From assembly GCA_020725805.1 (NCBI GenBank), contig DYEF01000097.1:1-50063 (forward strand): a stretch of 50,063 nt of DNA, read 5' to 3'. Below the pieces are notes generated by a model. The model saw nothing but the letters and a program-made list of their open reading frames with translations, ran no database searches and was not told where the DNA came from. The DNA is from Bdellovibrio sp. (lineage in GTDB: Bacteria; Myxococcota; SpSt-1050). Position 1 is the stretch's first letter. Every line of letters begins with the position of its first letter. This document shows, one piece after another, positions 15,101 to 27,789 of the stretch. Both the position numbers and the translations under genes were made by a program.

Positions 15101-15844
15101 TTACGAGGTGAGATATCTTGCGACTTCCCTTATTACAGGGTGAATCTCTGTGTCGTTTCTGACCTGAACAAGCTCGGTCTTTGGCAAAAGGTATGTCAGT
15201 TTGATTGATAATCCCGGAAAGCAGTAAGGATTTCTGACCAGTGTTGTTCTTATCCGTCTGTTGTTCTTCCACCTGTAACTATTGTAGATTTCCAGAAGGA
15301 CCGGGGCGAAATTCGGCCTTCTTGCCCCGAGGGCAATGACGTCACTTTCGAAGAGCCTCGGATTCAAAAGCAGAATTCTGATGACATCAGGTGTAGGGTC
15401 CTTAAGCAGCCTCTCTACCATCTTTCTGTCGAGCCTTTTTGCAAAAGACTTTCTTTCTCCCAGCGTTACCTTCGAGAGTTCGACGTCCCACTCCTCAAAA
15501 TCCTTCGGGTCAGCACTCATCACCGGCGGCGGAGAGATAAAGAAGGATTTGACCTCATTATAATTCTTTTCGACGGCAGTAAGGTAGATTGACTCTATCT
15601 TTTCGTAGAGATGAGCACTTTCGCCGGCGATATTTATCATAACATCTGTAAGTGCATTCATTATTCTCAGTGATATATTCTCTTCCTCTCTTAGAGTCAG
15701 GATAACTGTCCTGAGAATCTCTGTAACCAGTTCAGGTTCCAGTTTTTCTATTATTTCCCTTATCTGATACCTGTGAAAAGATAATTCCGTACTGGTTCTG
15801 AAACGGGGTTTAATCTCATTTTCGAAAATCTCACTGATATTCAT
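15101..15844 (-). CDS. alpha-helical repeat protein
   Basis: A 247-residue soluble protein, predicted all-helical. The second half contains HEAT- or LRV-like units, each a pair of helices around a turn with Asn-Pro or Asp-Pro (LLKDPTPDVIRILLLNPRLF; RTTLVRNPYC; NDTEIHPVIREVARYL). This pattern suggests a scaffold for protein-protein contacts. Its start overlaps the stop of the upstream zinc-ribbon/TM protein by three bases (ATGA), so the two are translationally coupled and probably work together. No enzyme motif is seen. Confidence 0.75.
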   Translation of the reverse strand: MNISEIFENEIKPRFRTSTELSFHRYQIREIIEKLEPELVTEILRTVILTLREEENISLRIMNALTDVMINIAGESAHLYEKIESIYLTAVEKNYNEVKSFFISPPPVMSADPKDFEEWDVELSKVTLGERKSFAKRLDRKMVERLLKDPTPDVIRILLLNPRLFESDVIALGARRPNFAPVLLEIYNSYRWKNNRRIRTTLVRNPYCFPGLSIKLTYLLPKTELVQVRNDTEIHPVIREVARYLTS

Positions 15845-17898
15845 TGAGAGGAAACTTTAACCGAGGATTTGACATTTACTCCGTTTATATCAATATTGCT
15901 TATTATAAGAGGGGCTATGAACGGGTTCTTTCTCTGGGTGATTATTCTGGATCTGTTCTTGCTTATGAAATCCCTGATTTCTTCCATATTCTTTATATTC
16001 ATAATATCTTCGGATTTTTCCGTATAGGTGAGCGGGTATTCTGTCTGTATAATCTCGTTGCCAGATAGGTCAGATAAGCTGAACTGAAGGATTATGCTGT
16101 CGGGAGGGACAGGTTTGTTGAGGTTTATATGTCCGGTGAAAATCAGTAGTGTCTCTTTCGGGCTTATTTGCCTGAAATAGAGATTCTCTATGACAATCGA
16201 ATTGGTAATCAACGGTTGCCTTATGGCTTTGAGAATATCGGCATTTATATCAGGAAAGATCTTTGAGGGTGAGTACGATATCAGTCCGACCAGTGCCCCG
16301 AATATAAGTGTAAATATCCATTTTGCAACCTCTCTCTTGATTGATTTTTCACTATCCTTGAGAGCCATAGTCGCAGGTTTGAGGGGGACGGATGCGGTAC
16401 TCTTTCTGGGAAACTCCTCTGACTGACCGGCCTCCTGATACGTCTGGATGGCCGGCTCCTGTGTTGTGGACCTGACCGGGGCTGGTTTTGCTATTGCCGG
16501 GATATTCTGTACAGGTGACTGAACCGGAGACATATCGATGGAATCCATCTGTGAGAGAAGGTCATCGCTCCTGTTTGCATTTGGTGAAAATCTGTTCCTG
16601 TCATCATCAGGCTTTTTTGTCTCCGGAAGGTCTGCCCCGAGTTCACCGAATTCGAATGAACCTAAATTATCGGAGATGTTACTGATCTGGGGCTCCGGTG
16701 CCGGTGCCGGTGTGTTTGCGGCCGGCGGGGCAGATAATTCGGAGAGAAGGTCATCGGCCATATTGAGTGAGGGAGGTTTCGGAATCTGAGGCTGAGCTGT
16801 ATTCTGTGGAGACAAGAACATCGAGAGGTCATCACTCAGCAGATTGTCCTGAATCTGCTGTGGCTCGGGGACCTTCGCCGGTGCGGGTATATCACTTAGG
16901 GAGAAGGCCTCTGTAGGGTTAGGAGGTATATTCAGGGGAGGTGGCTGCTGATGTGCAGATATGCTCTGGGCGTTCTGATGGGCAACAGGAACGGCCTCCA
17001 TATAGAGCATAGTCTTTCTCACCTGCTTCTCCTGAGGCGTTGTCTGCTCTGGTGGCGTCTGAGGTTCTGATTCGGCAAAGAGACTGTCGAAGACCTTATC
17101 TATGTCCATTGAAAGTTTGTCCTGCGGACTTGCAATCTGCGGTGCCGGCGGAGCAGTTTCATCCTTCTGAGCACTGATAACCGGCTCTTTCGGTTTATCG
17201 GGGGAAACTAAGCCTGAAGTAGGCTTGGGGTCTGTTCCGGTCTGTATAGCGGGTTTCTCCTGAATTGTGGCAGAGAGAAGAGCAGAGAGGTCAGGTAATT
17301 CCTCAGGTGTAGAATCTGTTGTTTCTTTTTCCGGGATTTGTATAGGTGGAGAAGAATTTATATCCGAGATGCTGTCGAGCAATGAATCGATGCCCGGAAT
17401 ATCTGCTGGTGACGACTTCTTCTCAGGTGTACTGGTGACGGCTTCAAAATCCGGGAGCGGTATGTCCGGTATATCAGCAGGTTTGGCGGGCAACTCTGTC
17501 TTCACGACCGGTTCAGTCTGAACCTGCTTGCTGAGTCCGGATTCGATTGCGGACATTATTTCACTCAGTCCCTGTCCTGAATCCTCGATTATTTTTATCT
17601 CGGGAGATGACATAGGTATGCCGTGTCCCAGTGATTCTACAGAGGACGAGAGACTATTCTGATGCCTTTTGATTGTAACCGGAGAGTCATCGTCCTTATC
17701 TTCCCCGAACGGGGCCGGTATGAATCCTATCCTTGTCTTCTCCTCAAATTCTTCGGCAACGGGCTGAGTTGCCGGCTTTATAGGATATACTGAGAATACA
17801 TTTTTACATTTGCTGCATCTTACCTTGGTCCCTTCAGGCTTGATCTTTTCATCAGGGAGCTTGAATGAGGTATTACATTTGTCACACTTAATAATCAT
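15841..17898 (-). CDS. MJ0042-type zinc-ribbon, Pro-rich, single-TM protein
   Basis: A 685-residue protein. The N-terminal 37 residues form an MJ0042-type zinc ribbon (CDKC..CSKC). It continues with a long disordered Pro/Gln/Ser-rich region (about 50-515) containing short recurrent hydrophobic acidic motifs (DDLLSELSA, DNLLSDDLSMFL, DSLLDSISDI) that look like docking sites. One TM helix lies at about 524-545, and a beta-rich extracytoplasmic C-terminus resembles the domain attached to such ribbons (DUF3426-like). The orientation implied is ribbon inside and C-terminus outside. There is no Shine-Dalgarno sequence. A TATATC hexamer ends 10 nt before the ATG, so the message may be leaderless. 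The architecture parallels the gene at 48567. Confidence 0.82.
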   Translation of the reverse strand: MIIKCDKCNTSFKLPDEKIKPEGTKVRCSKCKNVFSVYPIKPATQPVAEEFEEKTRIGFIPAPFGEDKDDDSPVTIKRHQNSLSSSVESLGHGIPMSSPEIKIIEDSGQGLSEIMSAIESGLSKQVQTEPVVKTELPAKPADIPDIPLPDFEAVTSTPEKKSSPADIPGIDSLLDSISDINSSPPIQIPEKETTDSTPEELPDLSALLSATIQEKPAIQTGTDPKPTSGLVSPDKPKEPVISAQKDETAPPAPQIASPQDKLSMDIDKVFDSLFAESEPQTPPEQTTPQEKQVRKTMLYMEAVPVAHQNAQSISAHQQPPPLNIPPNPTEAFSLSDIPAPAKVPEPQQIQDNLLSDDLSMFLSPQNTAQPQIPKPPSLNMADDLLSELSAPPAANTPAPAPEPQISNISDNLGSFEFGELGADLPETKKPDDDRNRFSPNANRSDDLLSQMDSIDMSPVQSPVQNIPAIAKPAPVRSTTQEPAIQTYQEAGQSEEFPRKSTASVPLKPATMALKDSEKSIKREVAKWIFTLIFGALVGLISYSPSKIFPDINADILKAIRQPLITNSIVIENLYFRQISPKETLLIFTGHINLNKPVPPDSIILQFSLSDLSGNEIIQTEYPLTYTEKSEDIMNIKNMEEIRDFISKNRSRIITQRKNPFIAPLIISNIDINGVNVKSSVKVSSQ

Positions 17899-18015: not shown

Positions 18016-20163
18016 ATGAAAAAGTTACTCTATATAACCGTTATTATGGGGTTTTTTATTATCTGTCTTTCTGCCTGCAATCCGCTGGAGACGGTAACGG
18101 TCGACAGATACGATAATCACAAGAAGATAATCTACGGCAGGATCGACAAAAAACTTACTTTTGATGAACAGGGTATAAATAATTTTCTCATTCAGAGTGA
18201 TAAAATCGGTATCAACTGTAAGGACTGCATATATAAGGCCGAGAGGATAAAAACCGGTTACAGAAGAAATGTCATAAAACTCCAGCAGTATTACAAAGGT
18301 TATAAGGTATTCGGGTATACAGTAGTTCTGCACACAGACTCAGATAATAATCCTGTCTATGTAATAGACCACTCATTCCCGCTTGAAGGGGGTTTCTCTG
18401 TTCCGGATAAGATTATCTCTGAGAGAGAGGCAACAGGGCTCCTTCTGAACCACCTGAATAGTCAGAATGTAAAACCCGGGATAGCCGAACTCGGTATTGT
18501 TACTTATACCGAAAACCCGCTTCTCAGATATCGTATCAAGGCATATCTGCCTGACAGACCGTTTGACGGCGGTACTTTCGATATCGATGCAGTAACAGGT
18601 GAGGTCGTAAAGTATGAGCCGGCACTTGTCTCAACGAAGGTTACTATAACGAATACGAACAGTGAGAGTGTGGATGTGGAGGTTGCAAAGAATCCCGATG
18701 AATATTCAGATACAGATTGTGCCGATAATTACTGTGCAGTAGATACGACGCGTGGTGCTCAGGAGGTATTCGGCACGAAGTTCATAAAGACCTATTATGA
18801 GATTCAGCAGGCTCAGTTCCCCGGTGAACTCCCGCCTTCTTCAATGCTCTTCTCCTCAGGCGAAGCTTCAATATGGGATGGTGTAATGCCGGACGGTGTA
18901 AAGACAAGACGGATTGAAGGTATCTCTGCCCATTATGCCGCACAGAGGATTTACGACTGGTATGCCTCACTTGGTCTAAGAGGTATTGTGAATAAGGATA
19001 ACGGCTTTAGGGTATATCTGGAAAAAATGGCCTATGACCCTCTGGGGCTGAATGCATTCTGGGATATTTACAGCCATAGTGCAATGGTGCTATGGGTATA
19101 TCAGCCCGATGAAAATACGAGCAGGTCATTCGCATCATCATACGACGTGGTGGGGCACGAATATACTCACGGGGTATTATCCGCACCGCTCTCTCAGGGA
19201 GGACTTGCGGAACTGGAATATAATAATTCGAATTATCCGAAAAACGAATCCGCTTCTGTACAGGAGGGACTCTGTGATACAATGGGTTCACTCTCGCAGG
19301 GAGACGAGAATCCGAACTGGCTTATGGGTTATAACGGACTTATAGATTCGGACGGGAAGCACAGGTGGCTGAGAAATGATAGTGACCCTTACGACCCTGA
19401 TGCAATTACCTGGGGAGATAAGGAGTATATCGGCCAGTGTTATCAGAGACTCTGTTCGAAATATCCACCGCCGCCGGGACACAAAGATGACTGTCAGATG
19501 CCGCTGGATATGTATGACGCCTCTTATGTATGTGCGACCACTATTGCGTATCCCGCGTGGAAGATCAAAAATGCCATTGGTGTTGAAAAGACGGCAAAGA
19601 TATATTTCAACGTCATTGACAAGTATCTCCAGAAGAAGGAACTCATTCCCACAGTCAGTCAGTATGTCTTTGATTCCTGTATGGAACTTTACAACAACAA
19701 CGATGGTGAGTGCTGTGTGGTATATAAGGCACTTACAGAGTCAAAGTTTACGATTAACTTAAGAGGTATAGTATGTAGTGAACCTGTTGACGCAGGTCCT
19801 GATGTGGCTACCGATGTAATCTCCGATATATCTGCCGATGTGCCTTCTGATATAACAGTCTCCGATATAAAAGAAGATATATTAATACAGGATGCTATAA
19901 CAGATGTATCTGCCGATATAAAGGATGTCAGTTATGAAGATTTTGCCGACATAATAATAGAGGATGTCTCTATGGCAGATGAAACAAGTGACACTACAAT
20001 AATTACCGATGCGACAGAGGATATAATCCAAAAAGATAACGGAATTTCGGAGGATGCCGGAGAGGATTCGGGCGTAGTAACAGATATCAGTCTGGAAAAT
20101 GACAGCGGTCAGAAGAAGACAGATGAATCATCAGAGGGTTGTTCCTGTTCATTAATAGAGTAA
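18016..20163 (+). CDS. M4 (thermolysin)-like metalloprotease with GCxC tail
   Basis: A 715-residue exported protein. The signal peptide ends in lipobox LSAC (C21). An FTP/PepSY-type propeptide (about 40-195) is followed by an M4-type catalytic domain. The zinc site is H381-E-Y-T-H385, with third ligand E417 in NESASVQEGLCD, aligning with the thermolysin NESGAINEAISD stretch. The position of thermolysin His231 appears to be Tyr (ASYVCATTIAYPAWKI), so catalysis may be altered. Residues about 592-706 are an Asp-rich linker with D-V/I-x-x-D units, and the chain ends GCSCSLIE. Two unrelated exported proteins nearby share this tail. If the propeptide is removed by cleavage, the N-terminal lipid is lost, leaving the C-terminal tail as the only possible anchor. 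Confidence 0.88.
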   Translation: MKKLLYITVIMGFFIICLSACNPLETVTVDRYDNHKKIIYGRIDKKLTFDEQGINNFLIQSDKIGINCKDCIYKAERIKTGYRRNVIKLQQYYKGYKVFGYTVVLHTDSDNNPVYVIDHSFPLEGGFSVPDKIISEREATGLLLNHLNSQNVKPGIAELGIVTYTENPLLRYRIKAYLPDRPFDGGTFDIDAVTGEVVKYEPALVSTKVTITNTNSESVDVEVAKNPDEYSDTDCADNYCAVDTTRGAQEVFGTKFIKTYYEIQQAQFPGELPPSSMLFSSGEASIWDGVMPDGVKTRRIEGISAHYAAQRIYDWYASLGLRGIVNKDNGFRVYLEKMAYDPLGLNAFWDIYSHSAMVLWVYQPDENTSRSFASSYDVVGHEYTHGVLSAPLSQGGLAELEYNNSNYPKNESASVQEGLCDTMGSLSQGDENPNWLMGYNGLIDSDGKHRWLRNDSDPYDPDAITWGDKEYIGQCYQRLCSKYPPPPGHKDDCQMPLDMYDASYVCATTIAYPAWKIKNAIGVEKTAKIYFNVIDKYLQKKELIPTVSQYVFDSCMELYNNNDGECCVVYKALTESKFTINLRGIVCSEPVDAGPDVATDVISDISADVPSDITVSDIKEDILIQDAITDVSADIKDVSYEDFADIIIEDVSMADETSDTTIITDATEDIIQKDNGISEDAGEDSGVVTDISLENDSGQKKTDESSEGCSCSLIE

Positions 20164-20166
20164 AAT

Positions 20167-20184
20167 AGTTCAAACCGTTCAAAC
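20167..20184 (+). repeat. 9-bp tandem repeat, two units
   Basis: AGTTCAAAC then CGTTCAAAC, starting 3 bp after the stop of the M4-like gene. The same unit is present in four copies at 21784-21819, so the two blocks flank the nitroreductase and outer-membrane protein genes as direct repeats. Confidence 0.7.
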
Positions 20185-20250
20185 CAAAATTTCTTCTGGA
20201 CATTCGGCTTGGGCGGTATTAAAAAAAGCTGACAAGCGGAGGTGTTTAAG

Positions 20251-20910
20251 ATGTTTGCACTCGAATGTATAGATAAGCGGATGAGCACCAGAAAGTTTAT
20301 TAACAAAGAGATTTCGGACGGGATACTCATTGAGATTCTGGAATATGCTTCCAAAGCCCCGTCATTCAAGAATAGTCAGCCGTGGGAGGTCTATGTAGTA
20401 AAAGAGCCTCAGTTGGGCAATTTATCAAAGTTGTTAATTAATGAATTTGAGAGTGGAAGAACTCCGTCACCGGAGATTAAAGAGCCCGTATGGCCGGAAA
20501 AAATACATAGCAGGATAGAATCCCATATGATGAAGAGGGCTCTCAGATTCGGAGTCAATATAAACGACAAAGAGGCATTAAAGAAGGCAAAACTCGCTAA
20601 TTACAGATTCTATAATGCGCCTGCTGCAATCTTTCTCTTCTGCGACAGGAATCTCTCGGAGTGGTCGGTCTTTGATATCGGGGCATTTGTCTACGGGCTT
20701 ACCCTTGCCGCAACCGCGAAGGGGATTTCGAGTGTTATTCAGGCATCACTCACGGATTATCCGGATATTGTGAAAAACTTTCTGAAAGTCCCTCAGAATC
20801 TGAAACTTATTGTCGGGCTCTCTGTTGGCTATGCGGACGAATCCGATATTGCCAATTCATACAGGAGCGAGCGAATACCTGTGAGTGAATTTGCCAGAAT
20901 CATCAAGTGA
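20251..20910 (+). CDS. nitroreductase-family FMN enzyme
   Basis: A 219-residue cytoplasmic flavoenzyme of the nitroreductase fold. Visible are the N-terminal STRKF phosphate-binding motif, the PSFKNSQPWEVYVV segment and the C-terminal GLTLAATAKGISSVIQAS helix leading into VGLSVGYAD, typical of NAD(P)H-dependent nitroreductases acting as dimers. The substrate cannot be told from sequence. The ATG at 20251 is chosen because GCGGAGG at 20236-20242 lies 8 nt upstream; a GTG at 20242 would overlap that site. It stands between two exported-protein genes, with 9-bp repeats upstream. Confidence 0.88.
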   Translation: MFALECIDKRMSTRKFINKEISDGILIEILEYASKAPSFKNSQPWEVYVVKEPQLGNLSKLLINEFESGRTPSPEIKEPVWPEKIHSRIESHMMKRALRFGVNINDKEALKKAKLANYRFYNAPAAIFLFCDRNLSEWSVFDIGAFVYGLTLAATAKGISSVIQASLTDYPDIVKNFLKVPQNLKLIVGLSVGYADESDIANSYRSERIPVSEFARIIK

Positions 20911-20937
20911 ATTCTTTCACTCTCTGTTTGTTTTTTT
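20907..20937 (+). terminator. weak candidate terminator
   Basis: GTGAA-TTCT-TTCAC (20907-20920) overlaps the nitroreductase stop and is followed by a T-rich stretch including a T7 run (20921-20937). The stem is only 5 bp, so efficiency is doubtful. Confidence 0.3.
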
Positions 20938-21049
20938 CACAGATATATACCGGGCACTCCATCCTAACCATTTGAAAACATGCTTTTTTTAAGTCTGGCA
21001 TAACATTTGATTAACAGGTAGTTAATGAGTCTGTTCAAGGAGGTTTATT

Positions 21050-21778
21050 ATGAAGAAACTTATATTATTGATTTCCTCAATCGTAAGTCTCTTTGTCTTT
21101 TCAGGGGCGACCTGTTCGCCAATCTCTCCGCCGGCATTTTCACCTTCAAGGACTCTAAAGGCTCAAAAGGAGGGTGACGTATCTGTAAAGATGTTTGGAG
21201 GGGCGGCAACTCAGGTATTTGACTTAAGCGGAGTTGGTATCGGACTTGAGGCGGATTACAGAGCAGAGGAAAATACCGAAGTTGTCTTCGGTATATCAGG
21301 GGCAAAGGGTGAGGACGACCTCGAGAATAATCATTCGGTATTTCAGACAGGAGCAGGAATCGTAAAATACTTTTTAGAGCTCAATGACGACTCCTATCTG
21401 TTTGCGTTTGAGCCAAGGATTGATTTCGTATATATCACAAATGGAACTGTCTCCGCCATTCCGAATCTGGTAATTCATACTTCATACAGATACGGACTGA
21501 TTGAGCCCAAGCTCACATTGAGGGCCGGTTCGAGCCTTATATTATCCCGCGGAGATGAGGTAAATGTAGACAAACCTGTCTCCGGGCCAGCAGTATACAG
21601 GAAGGATTTTCTCAAAGATATAATATACGGCGGCGGTGATCTTGGTATTCTCTTTCATTTCGGCAGATTATATACAGGTCCTGTATTAGGGGTGATGTAC
21701 ACAAAGAGTCTTAAAGATTGTGAGGAATGCACGGACCTCTGGATGTACTATCTGATAAATGCGGGAGTTGATTTTTAA
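21050..21778 (+). CDS. predicted outer-membrane beta-barrel protein
   Basis: A 242-residue exported protein with signal peptide and a possible but imperfect lipobox (GATC, C22). After a Pro/Ser-rich spacer the sequence is a series of amphipathic beta strands (e.g. VFGISGAKGE, ILFHFGRLYTGPVLGVMYT) ending in an aromatic residue (GVDF), as in many outer-membrane barrels. AAGGAGG at 21036-21042 precedes the ATG by 7 nt. Its stop is followed directly by the four-unit 9-bp repeat. The substrate or partner is unknown. Confidence 0.7.
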   Translation: MKKLILLISSIVSLFVFSGATCSPISPPAFSPSRTLKAQKEGDVSVKMFGGAATQVFDLSGVGIGLEADYRAEENTEVVFGISGAKGEDDLENNHSVFQTGAGIVKYFLELNDDSYLFAFEPRIDFVYITNGTVSAIPNLVIHTSYRYGLIEPKLTLRAGSSLILSRGDEVNVDKPVSGPAVYRKDFLKDIIYGGGDLGILFHFGRLYTGPVLGVMYTKSLKDCEECTDLWMYYLINAGVDF

Positions 21779-21783
21779 TTAAC

Positions 21784-21819
21784 CGCTCAAACCGTTCAAA
21801 CTGTTCAAACCGTTCAAAC
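21784..21819 (+). repeat. 9-bp tandem repeat, four units
   Basis: Units CGCTCAAAC, CGTTCAAAC, TGTTCAAAC and CGTTCAAAC run head to tail between the convergent stops at 21778 and 21823. The repeat has no dyad symmetry, so it is not a terminator hairpin. It matches the two-unit block at 20167-20184 in the same orientation. Confidence 0.8.
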
Positions 21820-21822
21820 TGT

Positions 21823-24294
21823 TTATTCAAGGACCGTACAGCCGCAGCCTCCTTCTTCCTCTTCTCCCAGTTTACTGAGGTCGGAGGTCTTCTTTTTAAT
21901 GTCGTCATAAGAAATGATATCTTCAGCTTTACCACCTGAGTCTTCATCTGATGTATCATTGGAGATTATCGTATCCGTATTCTGATTTGTATCTGTTCCC
22001 TCATCCGGTATATTTGCTTTGTCTTCCGGCAAGATATCCTCGTTTGGACTTGTATCTGCTGATGTATCATCAGCGGTACCGGTATCTGACCGGATATCAA
22101 TACCTGCGTCCGTTGAAGTCCCTGTAATGTTGACGATGAAATATACAGGTATCAGGTCCTCCGCCTTCTCCGGCAGAATACTCCTGTTGCGGCCGGTCTG
22201 AACAGGCGACTCGCCATCCCAGGCAGCGATGTAGTAATAAATTTTATTTGCAGTTATAAATGCGGCCGAGATTTTTGCCTCGAATATATTCCCGCCTTTA
22301 TCTACCATGGTTATAGTCTTCATTATTGAATCGCCCTCGTTTTTATATTTTATATTTGCCGCCTGAATCTTTCCGGAATCATCCGTTATCTTCGCGGATA
22401 TGATGATATCTTCTCCCTTCTTTGCCGAGCTTACCGGTGTATGGACGATTACGGGAGGAGTGTTTGGCTGCACAACCGTAATAGTAAAGTATTGCGGATT
22501 TGTCGTATCCTCAGCCTTCTCCGGAAGGATGCTTCTGTTTACACCCGTCTGAACCGGTGATTCCCCGTCCCACGCTGCAAGGTAATAATAGATTTTGGTA
22601 CTTTTTATTGAGGCCGCGGGGATTTTTGCCTCATAATTGCCCGAACCTTTATCTGTCATACTCAATGCTGTAAAATTTGCCTCTCCTTCATTTTTGAATC
22701 TTAAAGTGGCTGAATCTATTTTTCCGGAGTCGTCGGTGATTTTCGCAGTGATTAATATATCCTTCCCGCTTTCAGCAGATGTCACCGGTGTGTGAGTGAT
22801 TACAGGGGGCTTATTTGTTGGAACTGAATCATCAACGATTGCATTATACCTGATTGCGTCGTATCCGTCGTTCTCGGCCGGTGTTCTGACTGTATATCCG
22901 ACACCCCAGTACCCCGAACCGGCATACGATTCGACCATATCCCACTTTCCGTCAGAACGGAAACCTACGAAAAGACGGATATGGGAGCCTGTATCGTTTA
23001 AGGCATCGGCGGGTTTGAGGTCCGATTTGTTTATTTTGGTTGCTATCTGCATAATAGTTGAAGTCCCATATTTCGTAGTCTGTTTCCATAGTCTGGAGAC
23101 AAAGCCGGAGCAATCTACTCCAACCGAACAGGATGAGCCACAGGCACTGGTACCATCTGCGTATTTTGTCTGAATATCTCCTGCCTTCTTGCAATCCACA
23201 AGCCCCTGATCGAACTGTGATATCGTCGAGAATCCTCCCCACGAGTAAGGGAATCTGGTGTTCGTTCCTACAACAACCCACGAGGGTGGTTTGATTGTCT
23301 TCTGCTTGTTGCACCAGTCCGTACAGGTAGTTGTCCCTATATTGCAGGATTTTGCGGTCCATACATGGTCATTATACTGCTTTGCAAGGGATAATGCCTC
23401 GGACCTCTTGACCGCTGTAAGGGCCATAAGATTCTGGGTATAATTTATATTCTCCGTCATCTCGTATAATTTCTTCGTCCAGTAGGTTATTCCGACTTTG
23501 CCGTCTGTATAACCGTCATACTCAAAAATTCTGAGACCGTCTTTGTCCGAAGCAAGAATGTATATCTTGTTGCCGTATACCTTTACGTCTCTGACATCGC
23601 TTAGCAAAAACCGGTTCGGAAGTATTATCTCGGAGAATATGCTGCCTTTTTCATCGATTGTAAGTACCGAACGGCTGTTGCCCATATCAAATTCTGTAAC
23701 AATCACCAGCAGGTTATCAATAAACCCTACCGGTGTTATCGCGGCAATCTCCTTCTCGTTTTCAAATGAATATACAAGTATCTCGTCGTTGTGGTAGATT
23801 CTCACCTGAGCAAGATGAGGATTTTCGATTACTGCATCCATCAGGATATCCTGAAAGACATACTTTTCATATTTTGTTATAGGGTAGAACGTATTACCAA
23901 AATGCATAACTCCCGATACCGGTTCTGAGACCGGCATTGTCTGAATCCTGAGTATGTTTTTACCAAGTACCTGATATACCCCTCCGTCCCTTCCGAAGAG
24001 AAGAGTCTTACTGTTTGACCTCTCGACCATAATTATATCTTCAGGGAGATTCTCAACTGAGTTTATGTAAATGCCGTTCTCGAAGATATTAAGGCTTCTG
24101 CCAAGATTACTGAGTATGCCTGTCTCACTTTTATCTACATAGAAATCGGATACCCCGTAGATTCCGTCAGGTGCTGTAAAATAGTTGATGTTATGTGGCG
24201 GCTCTCCCCACTTTATATTCAGGATTTCGGCTGCATAGCTGTTTGAAAACAGGAGAATCAAAAAGGAAAACGTCACAAAAACCCTTCTTCTCAT
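21823..24294 (-). CDS. exported NlpC/P60-like protein with GCxC tail
   Basis: An 823-residue protein with signal peptide (cleavage after SYA). Residues about 25-300 are beta-rich, perhaps propeller-like. Next is an NlpC/P60-type cysteine hydrolase domain (about 330-490), with catalytic C395 in GVDCSGFVSRLW and H438 in GSHIRLFVGF. Such enzymes cleave or modify peptidoglycan peptides or related amide bonds. Two tandem, clearly homologous Ig-like domains follow (about 492-600 and 611-715; both contain AKITDDSGKI and YY.AAWDGESPVQTG). A long Asp/Ser/Thr-rich linker (about 724-805) ends in GGCGCTVLE, the tail shared with the genes at 18016 and 26443. AAAGGAGG precedes the ATG. It is the second gene of an operon 12 bp after a small barrel protein. 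Confidence 0.85.
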   Translation of the reverse strand: MRRRVFVTFSFLILLFSNSYAAEILNIKWGEPPHNINYFTAPDGIYGVSDFYVDKSETGILSNLGRSLNIFENGIYINSVENLPEDIIMVERSNSKTLLFGRDGGVYQVLGKNILRIQTMPVSEPVSGVMHFGNTFYPITKYEKYVFQDILMDAVIENPHLAQVRIYHNDEILVYSFENEKEIAAITPVGFIDNLLVIVTEFDMGNSRSVLTIDEKGSIFSEIILPNRFLLSDVRDVKVYGNKIYILASDKDGLRIFEYDGYTDGKVGITYWTKKLYEMTENINYTQNLMALTAVKRSEALSLAKQYNDHVWTAKSCNIGTTTCTDWCNKQKTIKPPSWVVVGTNTRFPYSWGGFSTISQFDQGLVDCKKAGDIQTKYADGTSACGSSCSVGVDCSGFVSRLWKQTTKYGTSTIMQIATKINKSDLKPADALNDTGSHIRLFVGFRSDGKWDMVESYAGSGYWGVGYTVRTPAENDGYDAIRYNAIVDDSVPTNKPPVITHTPVTSAESGKDILITAKITDDSGKIDSATLRFKNEGEANFTALSMTDKGSGNYEAKIPAASIKSTKIYYYLAAWDGESPVQTGVNRSILPEKAEDTTNPQYFTITVVQPNTPPVIVHTPVSSAKKGEDIIISAKITDDSGKIQAANIKYKNEGDSIMKTITMVDKGGNIFEAKISAAFITANKIYYYIAAWDGESPVQTGRNRSILPEKAEDLIPVYFIVNITGTSTDAGIDIRSDTGTADDTSADTSPNEDILPEDKANIPDEGTDTNQNTDTIISNDTSDEDSGGKAEDIISYDDIKKKTSDLSKLGEEEEGGCGCTVLE

Positions 24295-24306
24295 AAGAAA
24301 CCTCCT

Positions 24307-24855
24307 TTATAATCCTGCTTCCCTGTCCTTTTCTCTGTCGGATGCAAACCCGCTCCCGATTGTAAACAGAATAATCGATGGCCATTCTGTAGTTGTCTTG
24401 TAGAGTTGCTTGTATGAAAGCTCAAATGTCAGAAAGACCGGGAGCCTTTCGTATCTTAATCCCGCTCCCATAGAATAGCCATAATCGTAATTTTCGTTGT
24501 TTAGAAAATTTCCTTTATAAAACTCTCCCGTAACCTTGATATACGGAAGAAGTCTCATAACATCTACCACAAAGAGCAGACCGAGAGATGTGTTGACCAG
24601 ACTTGCCTCATTGGCGTATTTCTGACCTCTGTAAATACCGCTTTCGAGGTGTGAGATGCTCTCATTTATTGTCAGAGCAAGGTCGGAGAAGAGGAAGAGA
24701 TTTGTCGATATACCGAGCAGGTAGCCGTTTCTTTCAGTTGGACCTCTGTACTCGAATGCACCGGTATTGAGTGCTGCATCGAAGGAGATTCCGAAGAGAC
24801 TTTGGGAATATAACAGTAATAGCGCAATAAATAACTGAAAGGTTCTGACTAACAT
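24307..24855 (-). CDS. small outer-membrane beta-barrel protein
   Basis: A 182-residue exported protein with signal peptide (MLVRTFQLFIALLLLYSQS..) and alternating amphipathic strands (GYLLGISTNLFLF, SMGAGLRYERLPVFLTFELSYK). It is probably an 8-stranded barrel. It is transcribed ahead of the NlpC/P60-like gene with a 12-bp gap, so the two products may act together at the outer membrane. There is no Shine-Dalgarno sequence; the promoter -10 lies only 7 nt before the ATG, implying a leaderless mRNA. The C-terminal charged tail (ASDREKDREAGL) is unusual for a barrel, which normally ends in an aromatic residue. Confidence 0.7.
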   Translation of the reverse strand: MLVRTFQLFIALLLLYSQSLFGISFDAALNTGAFEYRGPTERNGYLLGISTNLFLFSDLALTINESISHLESGIYRGQKYANEASLVNTSLGLLFVVDVMRLLPYIKVTGEFYKGNFLNNENYDYGYSMGAGLRYERLPVFLTFELSYKQLYKTTTEWPSIILFTIGSGFASDREKDREAGL

Positions 24856-24862
24856 AGATATA

Positions 24863-24891
24863 ATAATATCTGATTATGTTATGAGAGTCAA
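24863..24891 (-). promoter_or_regulatory. promoter of barrel/NlpC operon, leaderless layout
   Basis: On the reverse strand, TTGACT (24891-24886), 17 bp, TATTAT (24868-24863). Only 7 nt separate the -10 from the ATG at 24855, so transcription should begin at or next to the start codon. Confidence 0.7.
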
Positions 24892-24953
24892 ATATTAGAG
24901 GAATTTTTCTAATCTGTTGATTTTTCCGAAATTATGAGATTAACTTGTCCGAT

Positions 24954-26354
24954 ATGAGCATTAAGCAAAAATTTACGTTCTTCCTGATGCTTCTGATGTT
25001 TCTCTTTGTGGCACTCAATCTGGCGGCATATCTATATATCTCTTACCGTCTCTTTATGTCAGGCAAGGTAGATACCTATATGATTTCAGCCTCGATTATT
25101 TCCCGTCTGGTCACCGAAAAGGGGGACAGGGAGTGCTATCAGGTGATAGGAGACAGAAAACTTTTCGAATATATGCCTGTTGCAATTGCGAGGGTTTATA
25201 AGGATAACTCCTTTGACTATCTCTGTGGTCTGGTAAATGATACCGGTATCATCAGAGAGGCTCTCAAGAGTGTTAGCAGGGAATACGGTTTCTTTGATTA
25301 CGGTTCGGGTTACATAGGTATTTTCAAGAATGCCGATACAGGAGACGGGCAGAGGTATCTGATAATCTTCAGTTATGAAAAGGATATTGCCAGTTATTCG
25401 AAGCTGAGAAATTCCATTGTAATATTCGACGTTATTCTGTTTCTGATACTCGGGATGGTTATATATTCAGTTGTGAGGAGATTGTACTTCAAACCGTTCG
25501 AGAATCTGATGGTCAGGATTAAATCACAGCAGATAGAAGATGATTTTCTCTCAGAGAGCGATAAAAAGGATGAGACCGCCGTGATTATTTCGTCGGTTGC
25601 AACACTTATAAGGAATCTCAAGAGAGAGAAGGCGGAACTTCTGCGAATCAATGAGGAACTCCGGAAAGCACAGGATGACCTTATAAAATCCGAAAGGCTC
25701 TCTACTGTCGGAAAGATTGCGGCCTCTATTGCACACGAGGTCGGAACACCTCTCGGGACGGTCAGGGGATATATCGATATAGTGGGGAAGGGGATAAGAG
25801 AGAACAGGACAGAGAATATAGGTGAGTATCTCAGAAAGATGGACAATGAGATAGTAAGAATAAGTAATATTCTGAGGGAATTGCTGGATTATGCAAGACC
25901 TCCGAAGTTCAATATGAAGAAGGATGATGTCGGGCTGGCAGTTACGGAGGCCATAAATTTTGTCTCGCTTCAGAAATCCTTTGCAAATATAAGAATAAGG
26001 TTTAATAACAACGAAAAAATATCTGCTGTGTATGATAAAGACCGTATCAAGCAGGTACTGATAAATCTCCTGATGAACGCAAAGGATGCGATGAACGGAA
26101 ACGGGGATGTAGAAATATCGCTTACTCAGGATGAGGGATATGCAGTGATATCTGTTAAGGATAACGGATGCGGGATAAACGAGGCAGACAGAGAGAAGAT
26201 ATTCGAACCTTTTTATACGACGAAACCATCGGGACAGGGCTCGGGTCTGGGACTCGCGATCGTGAAGAAACTCGTTGAAAGTATGGACGGGAAGATCGAT
26301 TTTGAATCCGGCAGGAATACCGGAACGGTCTTCAGGGTCTATCTGAAAAAATGA
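24954..26354 (+). CDS. membrane sensor histidine kinase
   Basis: A 466-residue sensor kinase. TM1 (about 7-27) and TM2 (about 152-172) bound an extracytoplasmic sensor of about 120 residues. A linker and coiled coil lead to HisKA with phospho-acceptor H261 in SIAHEVGTPLG, and a HATPase domain with N box (NLLMNAKDAM), DNGCGIN and GSGLGLAIVKK. It resembles NtrB/AtoS-like kinases. No response regulator lies beside it. A TTG at 24945 is an alternative start; neither has a Shine-Dalgarno sequence. A weak TTGATT-17-TTAACT ending 8 nt before the ATG would make it leaderless too. It diverges from the barrel/NlpC operon across about 100 bp. Confidence 0.9.
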   Translation: MSIKQKFTFFLMLLMFLFVALNLAAYLYISYRLFMSGKVDTYMISASIISRLVTEKGDRECYQVIGDRKLFEYMPVAIARVYKDNSFDYLCGLVNDTGIIREALKSVSREYGFFDYGSGYIGIFKNADTGDGQRYLIIFSYEKDIASYSKLRNSIVIFDVILFLILGMVIYSVVRRLYFKPFENLMVRIKSQQIEDDFLSESDKKDETAVIISSVATLIRNLKREKAELLRINEELRKAQDDLIKSERLSTVGKIAASIAHEVGTPLGTVRGYIDIVGKGIRENRTENIGEYLRKMDNEIVRISNILRELLDYARPPKFNMKKDDVGLAVTEAINFVSLQKSFANIRIRFNNNEKISAVYDKDRIKQVLINLLMNAKDAMNGNGDVEISLTQDEGYAVISVKDNGCGINEADREKIFEPFYTTKPSGQGSGLGLAIVKKLVESMDGKIDFESGRNTGTVFRVYLKK

Positions 26355-26358
26355 GTCT

Positions 26359-26439
26359 ATGTATATCCTTGGAATTACATCCGGTATGCACGATTCTTCT
26401 GCCGCGCTTGTAAAGTCCGGAAAAATAATTGCATTTTAA
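26359..26439 (+). pseudogene. truncated carbamoyltransferase (NodU/CmcH family) start
   Basis: A 26-codon frame starting 4 bp after the histidine kinase stop. It encodes the classic N-terminal strand of NodU/CmcH/HypF-type carbamoyltransferases: M-Y-I-L-G-I-x-x-G-x-H-D-S-S-A-A-L-V-K-S-G-K-I-I-A. In the family this continues as EEERF, but here it hits a TAA at 26437. Only 3 bp further lies the stop codon of the reverse-strand matrixin gene. The rest of the roughly 550-residue enzyme is absent. This is best read as a gene remnant left by a deletion or by insertion of the matrixin segment. Confidence 0.7.
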
Positions 26440-26442
26440 GAT

Positions 26443-27789
26443 TCAAAACAGAACACTGCATTCACATCCTGTGAGTTCGTTCAGTTCATCTATGAGGTCG
26501 ATATCTGACAGGGAACCCGAATCCTGCTGGTTTACACTGCCGGAGTCCTTCTCTGTCCCTGTATCAGTCCCCGTCCCTGTATCAGTCGGGGATGTTTTGG
26601 GCATACAGGCGCCGCTTTCATTCGTAAGAGTGACACATCTTTCTGTCTCGGGGCACTGCGGGCTTTTTGGATTGCATTCATAATAGCACTTCCCGAAATC
26701 ATCACCGGATTTTGCCGCTACACATATAAGACCGGACTTGCATTCACTTAGCGAATAGCATATCTCTCCAAGGTCTTTCGGGATATTGGCAGAATCACAC
26801 TCATCATTTTCCGGCCAGCAGCCGCCTCCGCCGTTTTCGAGTTCTGCGCAGTAATATCCGGAGGGGCAGTTGCTGCTGGATACAACGCAGTATCTCGAAC
26901 AGATAGAGAGATTACCGTCTGTCAGACAGAGTTCAGATGAGCAGTCTTTGGAACTTTCGCAGGGTTTGCATAAATCCGATGAACTGTCTCCCGGAAAACA
27001 ATAGGAATTGCTGTCATTTGCTTCGAGACACCGGTATCCGTTAGGGCAGCTGCCGGTTTCGGTCGTGCTGCAGTTCTGGGAACAGATACCCGAATCTCCG
27101 GCAGAGACACATATATTGCTGTTGCAGTCACTCGAATATTCACAGGCAGAACCAAAAGTCCCTTTCGATGAGGATGTCTTGTCGGGATAGAGAAAACAGA
27201 TGCCTTTTATGTCATCGTCTTCGATACTCCTTGCACTTGTCTCGCCGAGATTTGCATACGGATACATTGTGGCACCGTATACCATTGTATGGTCGAGTCC
27301 GAAGAAGTGGCCTATCTCGTGTGTGGCGATATTCTGTACATCCATCTTCCCCTTCTCACCGGTTGTCGACCACTGAAAATCTGCCGCATTGAATCTTATA
27401 TCGGCGTCCTTGATGTATCCGTCGGAATATACAGCAGGAGTACATACCGCTATCGTTCCGTAGCCTCCGAGTTCATCGGGCCATTTTCCTGTTATAAAGA
27501 ACAGGTTGTTTCTGAAATCGGAGGGGGATGCCGAAGTGGAGAGAGTCTTTCCTGCATATTCGGTTGAGACATAGGTGCAGTCGGGTTTGGACCATTCCTC
27601 GAAAGAGAGCTTTATGGCGTTTATTACCGCCGTTTCACTTAGCCCCGAACCTGCAGGATTTATGTAGTATTCAACGGGAAGAGAGGAGTCCATCCATTTT
27701 GCCGAACTTCCGTCGGGATTCTTAATGGTATTGAATCCGGAGATGAAAATTAATGATGAGAGAAGAAGAATCCTGATTATCCTGTTCAT
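26443..27789 (-). CDS. matrixin-like (M10) metalloprotease with GCxC tail
   Basis: A 448-residue exported metalloprotease. Signal peptide at 1-20. The catalytic domain (about 30-205) carries the metzincin zinc site H157-E-I-G-H161-F-F-G-L-D-H167 and a Met-turn (GATMYP, M175). No cysteine-switch propeptide is evident. Residues about 220-410 are Cys-rich Dickkopf/EGF-like repeats (C..SSDCNSNICV, CSRYCVV). A short Thr/Asp/Ser linker ends in TGCECSVLF, the tail shared with the proteins at 18016 and 21823. The ATG at 27789 has GGGAGC upstream and begins the signal peptide; an earlier ATG at 27816 lacks both. Its end abuts the broken carbamoyltransferase start. Confidence 0.88.
   Translation of the reverse strand: MNRIIRILLLSSLIFISGFNTIKNPDGSSAKWMDSSLPVEYYINPAGSGLSETAVINAIKLSFEEWSKPDCTYVSTEYAGKTLSTSASPSDFRNNLFFITGKWPDELGGYGTIAVCTPAVYSDGYIKDADIRFNAADFQWSTTGEKGKMDVQNIATHEIGHFFGLDHTMVYGATMYPYANLGETSARSIEDDDIKGICFLYPDKTSSSKGTFGSACEYSSDCNSNICVSAGDSGICSQNCSTTETGSCPNGYRCLEANDSNSYCFPGDSSSDLCKPCESSKDCSSELCLTDGNLSICSRYCVVSSSNCPSGYYCAELENGGGGCWPENDECDSANIPKDLGEICYSLSECKSGLICVAAKSGDDFGKCYYECNPKSPQCPETERCVTLTNESGACMPKTSPTDTGTGTDTGTEKDSGSVNQQDSGSLSDIDLIDELNELTGCECSVLF

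Follow-up and report, generated by a model that had tools for sequence, protein, structure and literature searches.

The stretch of DNA analysed here (the window; 50,063 nucleotides, contig DYEF01000097.1 of assembly GCA_020725805.1) originates from a Bdellovibrio sp. with the GTDB lineage Bacteria, Myxococcota, SpSt-1050, and encodes three exported proteins that end in a short cysteine-containing tail (Table 1). In the original prediction, these tails were read as a possible new sorting or attachment signal on three unrelated hydrolases. All three C-termini are present at these genes as claimed, and the first and third protein indeed belong to different Pfam families, while the NlpC/P60 label of the protein between them was not backed by any match above cut-off. 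Genome comparisons suggest, with a probability of about 0.68 for the explanation as a whole, that the tail is a truncated form of the MYXO-CTERM tag that has kept the cysteine signature and lost the transmembrane helix and the Arg cluster, and that the proteins carrying it would be lipidated, trimmed by a myxosortase, and brought to the cell surface by the type II secretion system (T2SS).

Table 1. Genes for tail proteins and positions of their tails in the window
Feature	Position	Strand	Basis and remarks
M4-like (thermolysin/fungalysin) metalloprotease, 715 aa	18016..20163	+	Pfam Peptidase_M4/FTP; Asp/Ser/Thr-rich linker; C-terminal tail
Tail GCSCSLIE without helix, M4-like protease	20137..20160; stop 20161-20163	+	Sequence, pattern scan
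823-aa exported protein	21823..24294	-	NlpC/P60-like in the original prediction, no family above cut-off; D-rich linker and tail
Tail GCGCTVLE without helix, 823-aa protein	21826..21849; stop 21823-21825	-	Sequence, pattern scan
Matrixin (Peptidase_M10), 448 aa, ATG 27789	26443..27789	-	Pfam Matrixin; signal peptide, Cys-rich repeats, linker, tail; the alternative upstream start ATG 27816 gives 457 aa
Tail GCECSVLF without helix, matrixin	26446..26469; stop 26443-26445	-	Sequence, pattern scan

Occurrence of the tail in the genus and its carrier proteins

The genome from which the window derives (G000; 3.29 Mb, 115 contigs, 97.9% complete) was compared with a genome of the same genus (G001) and one of the same order (G002). 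Open reading frames (ORFs) were called by simple rules, hydropathy was used to assign signal peptides and helices, and the metagenome-assembled genomes (MAGs) may be incomplete. An end-anchored scan, which had been proposed with the original prediction, showed that the tail is commoner than first described, as G000 contains 25 matches to the strict pattern GCxC-[ST]-h-h-x-stop (h, hydrophobic residue) versus one match to the reversed pattern used as control. Twenty-four of these matches end long ORFs; the remaining one (L025), a frame of 30 residues with its stop 12 bases from the contig end, is probably a fragment. With a relaxed pattern, C-x-C-x-h-h-x-stop, in which the Gly and Ser/Thr requirement is dropped, the raw matches number 62 in G000 versus 27 for the control, and 70 versus 20 in G001. 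In frame with a true stop and free of internal stops are 55 of them in G000 (the 25 strict matches and 30 others) and 52 in G001. The 55 matches split into 40 long ORFs of 302-1372 residues and 15 frames of at most 73 residues including L025, the 52 matches into 27 long ORFs, four of which are incomplete, and 25 frames of at most 161 residues. The short frames of the relaxed scan are taken as chance matches.

The resulting 67 tails of both genomes have the consensus S-S-G-C-[SG]-C-[SN]-[LF]-[IL]-[ED]. A Gly residue directly precedes the CxC motif in 58 of them, and the second Cys is followed by four residues in all 67, a distance fixed by the search design. Basic residues are rare, with R or K within the last four positions of only 4/67 tails, and the mean hydropathy of the last 15 residues never exceeds 0.65 in tail proteins.

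A signal-peptide-like hydrophobic segment was found at the N-terminus of all 40 carriers in G000 and, with the same hydrophobicity test, of all 23 complete carriers in G001 (lowest value 1.89; 22 of the 23 at 2.0 or above). An enrichment of the tail among signal-peptide proteins, for which a test had been proposed, is seen in a non-random 437-kb sample of G000 that is made up of the window and parts of five contigs with earlier matches and contains 351 ORFs: a signal-like N-terminus is present in 9/9 tail ORFs versus 155/342 others (Fisher p 9e-4). A stricter automatic class, requiring a signal and no further helix, took seven of these nine tail ORFs, and the other two are exported on inspection. 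The 60 residues preceding the tail contain 15-18% Asp versus a background of 6%.

Among the families listed (25 of 54), those matched by the carriers include proteases of the M4, M10, S8, and C1 families, metallophosphatases, GH25, amidase, kelch, and beta-propeller proteins. The cores of the 40 G000 carriers form 24 similarity clusters, so that the tail is common to exported proteins with mostly unrelated cores and behaves like a sorting signal, as had been proposed. Chance, or the recent duplication of one gene end, might still be considered as the origin of the shared tails, as 8/40 carriers match a divergent InlB-type repeat family and one core cluster has nine members. This origin retains practically no probability and is ruled out by the 25 matches versus a single control match, by the 24 core clusters, which exclude the duplication of one segment, and by the conservation of tails relative to linkers. 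In 23 reciprocal orthologue pairs of G000 and G001, the linkers are 43% identical on average, and 96% of the pairs retain the Gly that precedes the Cys.

Nearby outer-membrane barrel genes had been suggested as partners of the tail proteins. This suggestion was not supported, since no non-tail protein family recurs near more than two tail genes in the 21 neighbourhoods compared. Two proteins resembling each other (L034:7259 and L045:1245), with radical-SAM-like Cys motifs recognized by eye, lie near two tail genes; as they occur in only 2/21 neighbourhoods, this is probably due to chance.

Relation to MYXO-CTERM and a myxosortase-like enzyme

Several sorting systems share features with the tail proteins. 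GlyGly-CTERM/rhombosortase, JDVT-CTERM/MrtJ, and Synerg-CTERM/MrtS likewise combine a C-terminal tag with one intramembrane protease, but these tags are tripartite and contain a helix, whereas the tail of the genus is helix-less. The sortase, archaeosortase, rhombosortase, and myxosortase systems compared in the literature source consulted also use tripartite tags that include a membrane helix (PMC11980579). The closest likeness is to MYXO-CTERM (TIGR03901), with which the tail shares a GCxC-type signature followed by Ser, Thr, or Ala and its C-terminal position on dozens of exported proteins. In many cases, an acidic linker rich in Ser and Thr precedes the signature, and the genome encodes both a myxosortase-core enzyme and a secretin of the T2SS. 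In contrast to MYXO-CTERM, the tail has neither a helix nor an Arg cluster, ends four residues past the second Cys, and is not recognized by the respective model in G000. The original prediction had set the tail apart from MYXO-CTERM; this applies to the missing helix and basic residues, but not to the GCxC-[ST/A] signature, which is shared with many MYXO-CTERM tags. In a sample of 28 tags from 30 loci of relatives, limited to ends with Cys and basic residues, 22 have a CxC motif (GCGC-like) and six another arrangement of Cys, followed in all cases by a helix and a basic end.

What the tail proteins have in common with MYXO-CTERM proteins is thus the Cys signature, with CxC given by the search design, and the N-terminal signal of the carriers; a helix after the signature, an Arg-rich end, and a TIGR03901 score above cut-off are lacking. 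As two of the three parts of the tag are missing, the tail is not a member of MYXO-CTERM. At E<=10, the TIGR03901 profile (cut-off 20 bits) matches nothing in G000, one place with an E-value of 1.31 in G001, and 14 places in G002; matches above the cut-off occur in 31/39 genomes. The hydropathy rule, applied to the 437-kb sample of G000, revealed no C-terminal helix on any exported protein. No helix-less MYXO-CTERM was found in the literature searched, which did not include the 2024 in-silico myxosortase paper. The tail would be a helix-less variant that works like MYXO-CTERM yet lacks two of its three defining parts.

The matrixin provides a link between both forms. The protein encoded in the window is related to the myxosortase-dependent metalloproteases of NCBIfam NF041905 (88 bits, cut-off 250). 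Inspection by eye of 28 loci with matrixin relatives revealed a Cys motif, a helix, and a basic end at the place of the tail in 24; three relatives (G002, G017, and G020) do not have the full tag, and in one case it was not found. In five of the full-tag relatives, a CxCDxTxxCDxxCxCDPxC-like module stands directly before the tag, and the same kind of module stands directly before the helix-less tail at L032/L167. In several different proteases across the phylum, this Cys-rich module precedes either the full tag or the helix-less tail (L032:1687-3360, L033, L041, L280, L284-L286, and L289).

The conserved membrane enzyme that had been expected to accompany the tail is present in both genomes of the genus. 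In G000, the PF02517 (Rce1-like) profile matches one protein of 218 residues. With the Mrt_core model (NF040914, cut-off 100 bits), this enzyme scores 117.9 bits and its counterpart in G001 109.6 bits, and the model exceeds its cut-off in 33/39 genomes. Residues E127, E128, R132, H167, and H203 are invariant over 46 aligned rows and N207 is nearly so, corresponding to the motifs EExxxR, H, and HxxxN. The structural model of the enzyme has a pLDDT (predicted local distance difference test) of 96.3, and its best PDB match is the CAAX protease Rce1 (4cad) with a Foldseek probability of 1.00. The genus enzyme belongs to the myxosortase-core proteins, and its catalytic residues are intact. It shares the Mrt_core match and the motifs with MrtX, MrtC, and MrtP (CPBP/Rce1-like; NF040593, NF040594, and NF040674) but does not reach the cut-off of any of these three models. 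A further parallel is the CaaX box, processed by Rce1 and MmRce1, where a short Cys-aliphatic tail at the C-terminus of an otherwise soluble protein also goes together with an Rce1-like protease. In the tails described here, the Cys residues are at positions -5 and -7 instead of -4, and the tails are extracytoplasmic.

Proposed lipidation, trimming, and surface anchoring

For M. xanthus, it is reported that the tag of TraA is cleaved by MrtX and that cleavage depends on the MYXO-CTERM cysteines (PMC11980579). The authors propose that lipidation comes first and name Lgt as a candidate, with the lipid-attaching enzyme given as still unidentified (PMC11980579). By analogy, a tail protein of the genus would be exported by Sec, in line with the observed signal-peptide-like N-termini, and would then be lipidated at Cys on the periplasmic side, possibly by Lgt. 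The myxosortase would remove the final residues that follow the lipidated Cys, in the way CaaX proteases remove aaX, and the T2SS would bring the protein with its lipid anchor to the surface of the cell, as presumed from the route in M. xanthus. The substrate would thus resemble a CaaX protein, being soluble until lipidated and then held by a lipid instead of a helix. If this class of enzymes acts on helix-less tails, a lipid-first, CaaX-like order would be natural because nothing but the lipid would then attach the C-terminus to the membrane. The type II secretin GspD scores above cut-off in G000 and G001. Both genomes also encode two adjacent Lgt (prolipoprotein diacylglyceryl transferase) proteins (G000, contig C105, 13209-14892, covered by L236, L238, and L240; G001, contig C81, 3602-5285), one of which carries an insertion of about 40 residues, and a neighbouring pair of lgt genes is present in G002, too. 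A dedicated Lgt as lipid donor was rejected and is kept as a lead only, since a single Lgt match each was obtained in G016 (85% complete) and G033 (92% complete), although TIGR03901 exceeds its cut-off in these two genomes.

N-terminal lipidation was also considered as the real anchor and rejected, as a strict lipobox is present in only 2/67 carriers and a few others are lipobox-like by eye. The M4-like protease of the window has an N-terminal lipobox, LSAC (within 18016-18090), and together with its C-terminal Cys tail it might carry a lipid at both ends.

The trimming step has an alternative. A MYXO-CTERM-derived tail might stay uncleaved, so that lipidation of one or both Cys residues alone provides the anchor and the myxosortase acts elsewhere or is a relic. 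Without a helix, the protein can leave the inner membrane uncut, and the four residues after the second Cys would agree with this. The hydrophobic residues at -3 and -2 cannot decide about cleavage because they are part of the search pattern. The enzymes of both species keep their catalytic residues, and the TIGR03901 profile and a hydropathy scan of the 437-kb sample of G000 revealed no further class of substrates, which makes an uncleaved tail unlikely.

Several points weigh against the explanation by truncation, lipidation, and trimming. The conservation of two Cys residues between G000 and G001 is built in, as both genomes were searched with the same pattern, and the last four tail positions are each only 39-61% identical across the 23 orthologue pairs. 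The G000 enzyme scores 83, 136, and 160 bits with the models for MrtX, MrtC, and MrtP, which have cut-offs of 180, 195, and 250 bits, and the G001 enzyme is likewise below them. The Foldseek match to Rce1 (4cad) has an E-value of 0.018 and a TM-score of 0.50, and a sequence search for a solved relative found none. The myxosortase could be retained for another substrate. TIGR03901 undercounts in some relatives, since G003 and G012 score weakly yet encode full-tag matrixins; its silence in G000 is therefore no proof when taken alone. Lipidation, trimming, and surface anchoring via the T2SS are deduced from the analogy to M. xanthus, and the model gives no account of how a helix-less tail gets to the membrane enzyme.

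Helix-less tails outside the genus

In G002, at least six exported proteins with helix-less ends were found in a sample of about 568 kb that was partly picked for earlier matches. They comprise the matrixin, which ends GGCACSSVGIRERGM and shows no helix with Arg in the other frames, and proteins ending GGCGCSTLGS, GGCSCSKLGG, ACSCSTVGIGW, GSGCSVVGVGF, and GGCSTTGVGVGVGF; two of the six have one Cys. The same sample contains two full tags, GCGCASVGAGDD...RRRR and SCECSAVGVDARGH...RRRQ. As both forms of the tag occur in G002, this genome represents a mixed state, of which the genus is the extreme.

A scan of 195 genomes from the phylum with the strict pattern gives 25 matches in G000 and 10 in G001. 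Outside the genus, there are 0-6 raw matches per genome, and most of the places listed end in TGG, which is not a stop codon; among 50 such places, 11 are clean, with a maximum of two per genome (G004). This thin spread is no proof of absence because the strict pattern is blind to the tail forms of G002 and of a second clade of MAGs from guts and digesters.

This second clade was reached through the enzyme, as the loci retrieved with it included a gut MAG protein ending SDGCSMLFV. Ten gut/digester-type MAGs with myxosortase-like enzymes (G195-G204) were scanned with the pattern GC-[ST]-h-h-h-x-stop, which has 4-16 matches per genome and 110 in total versus four in total for the control. Of these matches, 104 translate with a true stop, including 38 GCSMLFI and 14 GCSMLFV ends, and most tails of this clade have one Cys. 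Tails of the SDGCSMLF[IV] or SSGCSV[VI]V[MF] type are found on exported proteins at L354, L372, L334, and other loci. The carriers were checked in 20 regions of three of the ten genomes, covering 23 matches. All 13 complete carriers have signal-peptide-like N-termini and mostly acidic or Ser-rich linkers before the tail, and they form at least four clusters without mutual match; among the other ten matches, four are truncated where the stretch ends, and six lie in frames of at most 30 residues. In five f18 genomes, the gut pattern has 0-2 matches, which is the control level. G202 contains very short frames with KSDGCSMLFI or a similar end (L457, L459, and L463), perhaps broken copies of tail genes.

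The gut enzyme at L372 keeps EExxxRG, H, and HxxSN and scores 78.3 bits with Mrt_core, below the cut-off of 100. It is followed by a purine-nucleoside-phosphorylase-like gene, labelled so without a family search. In the enzyme tree, the gut clade and the genus group together with a support of 91/76, which is not starred and makes this loose grouping suggestive only. A common origin of the enzymes of both clades was not adopted for this reason, and a clade uniting G000/G001 with G002 is not rejected (p 0.158).

Tails with one Cys bear on another explanation, in which the tail serves as a docking signal for the T2SS or the outer membrane, or as a redox, disulfide, or metal-binding hook, with a protein partner and neither lipidation nor proteolysis. 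CxC motifs are able to form disulfides or to bind metal, and GspD is encoded in both genomes of the genus, both of which would suit such a role. A disulfide within the tail is excluded where there is a single Cys, as in most tails of the gut clade and in two of six in G002, and no common neighbour gene was found in the 21 neighbourhoods. In addition, the tail has its signature in common with MYXO-CTERM, and cleavage of that tag in M. xanthus is reported to require its cysteines (PMC11980579). A docking or redox function of the tail is thus quite improbable.

Taken beyond the genus, the truncated tags might belong to a distinct bacterial class of surface anchoring, for which we see about even odds: helix-less, CaaX-like Cys tails that have arisen more than once on exported soluble proteins and would be recognized by the tail only, lipidated outside the cytoplasm, and trimmed by specialised myxosortases. 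It would include three forms, GCxC[SN]hh[ED] in the genus, GCxCS-x-[LV]-G... in the relative of the same order, and GCS-h-h-h-[IVM] in the gut and digester MAGs. A genus with some forty helix-less tags and a retained enzyme indicates which portion of the signal may be sufficient, and opens a test of whether myxosortases, being Rce1-like, act on an already lipidated Cys and of which enzyme adds the lipid. Counts of surface proteins in such lineages are probably too low because the helix-containing annotation model missed these tags.

Apart from the tail proteins, the window encodes a protein with an MJ0042-type zinc ribbon and a long Pro-rich middle part at 15841-17898 on the minus strand, the N-terminus of which weakly resembles the gliding protein GltJ.

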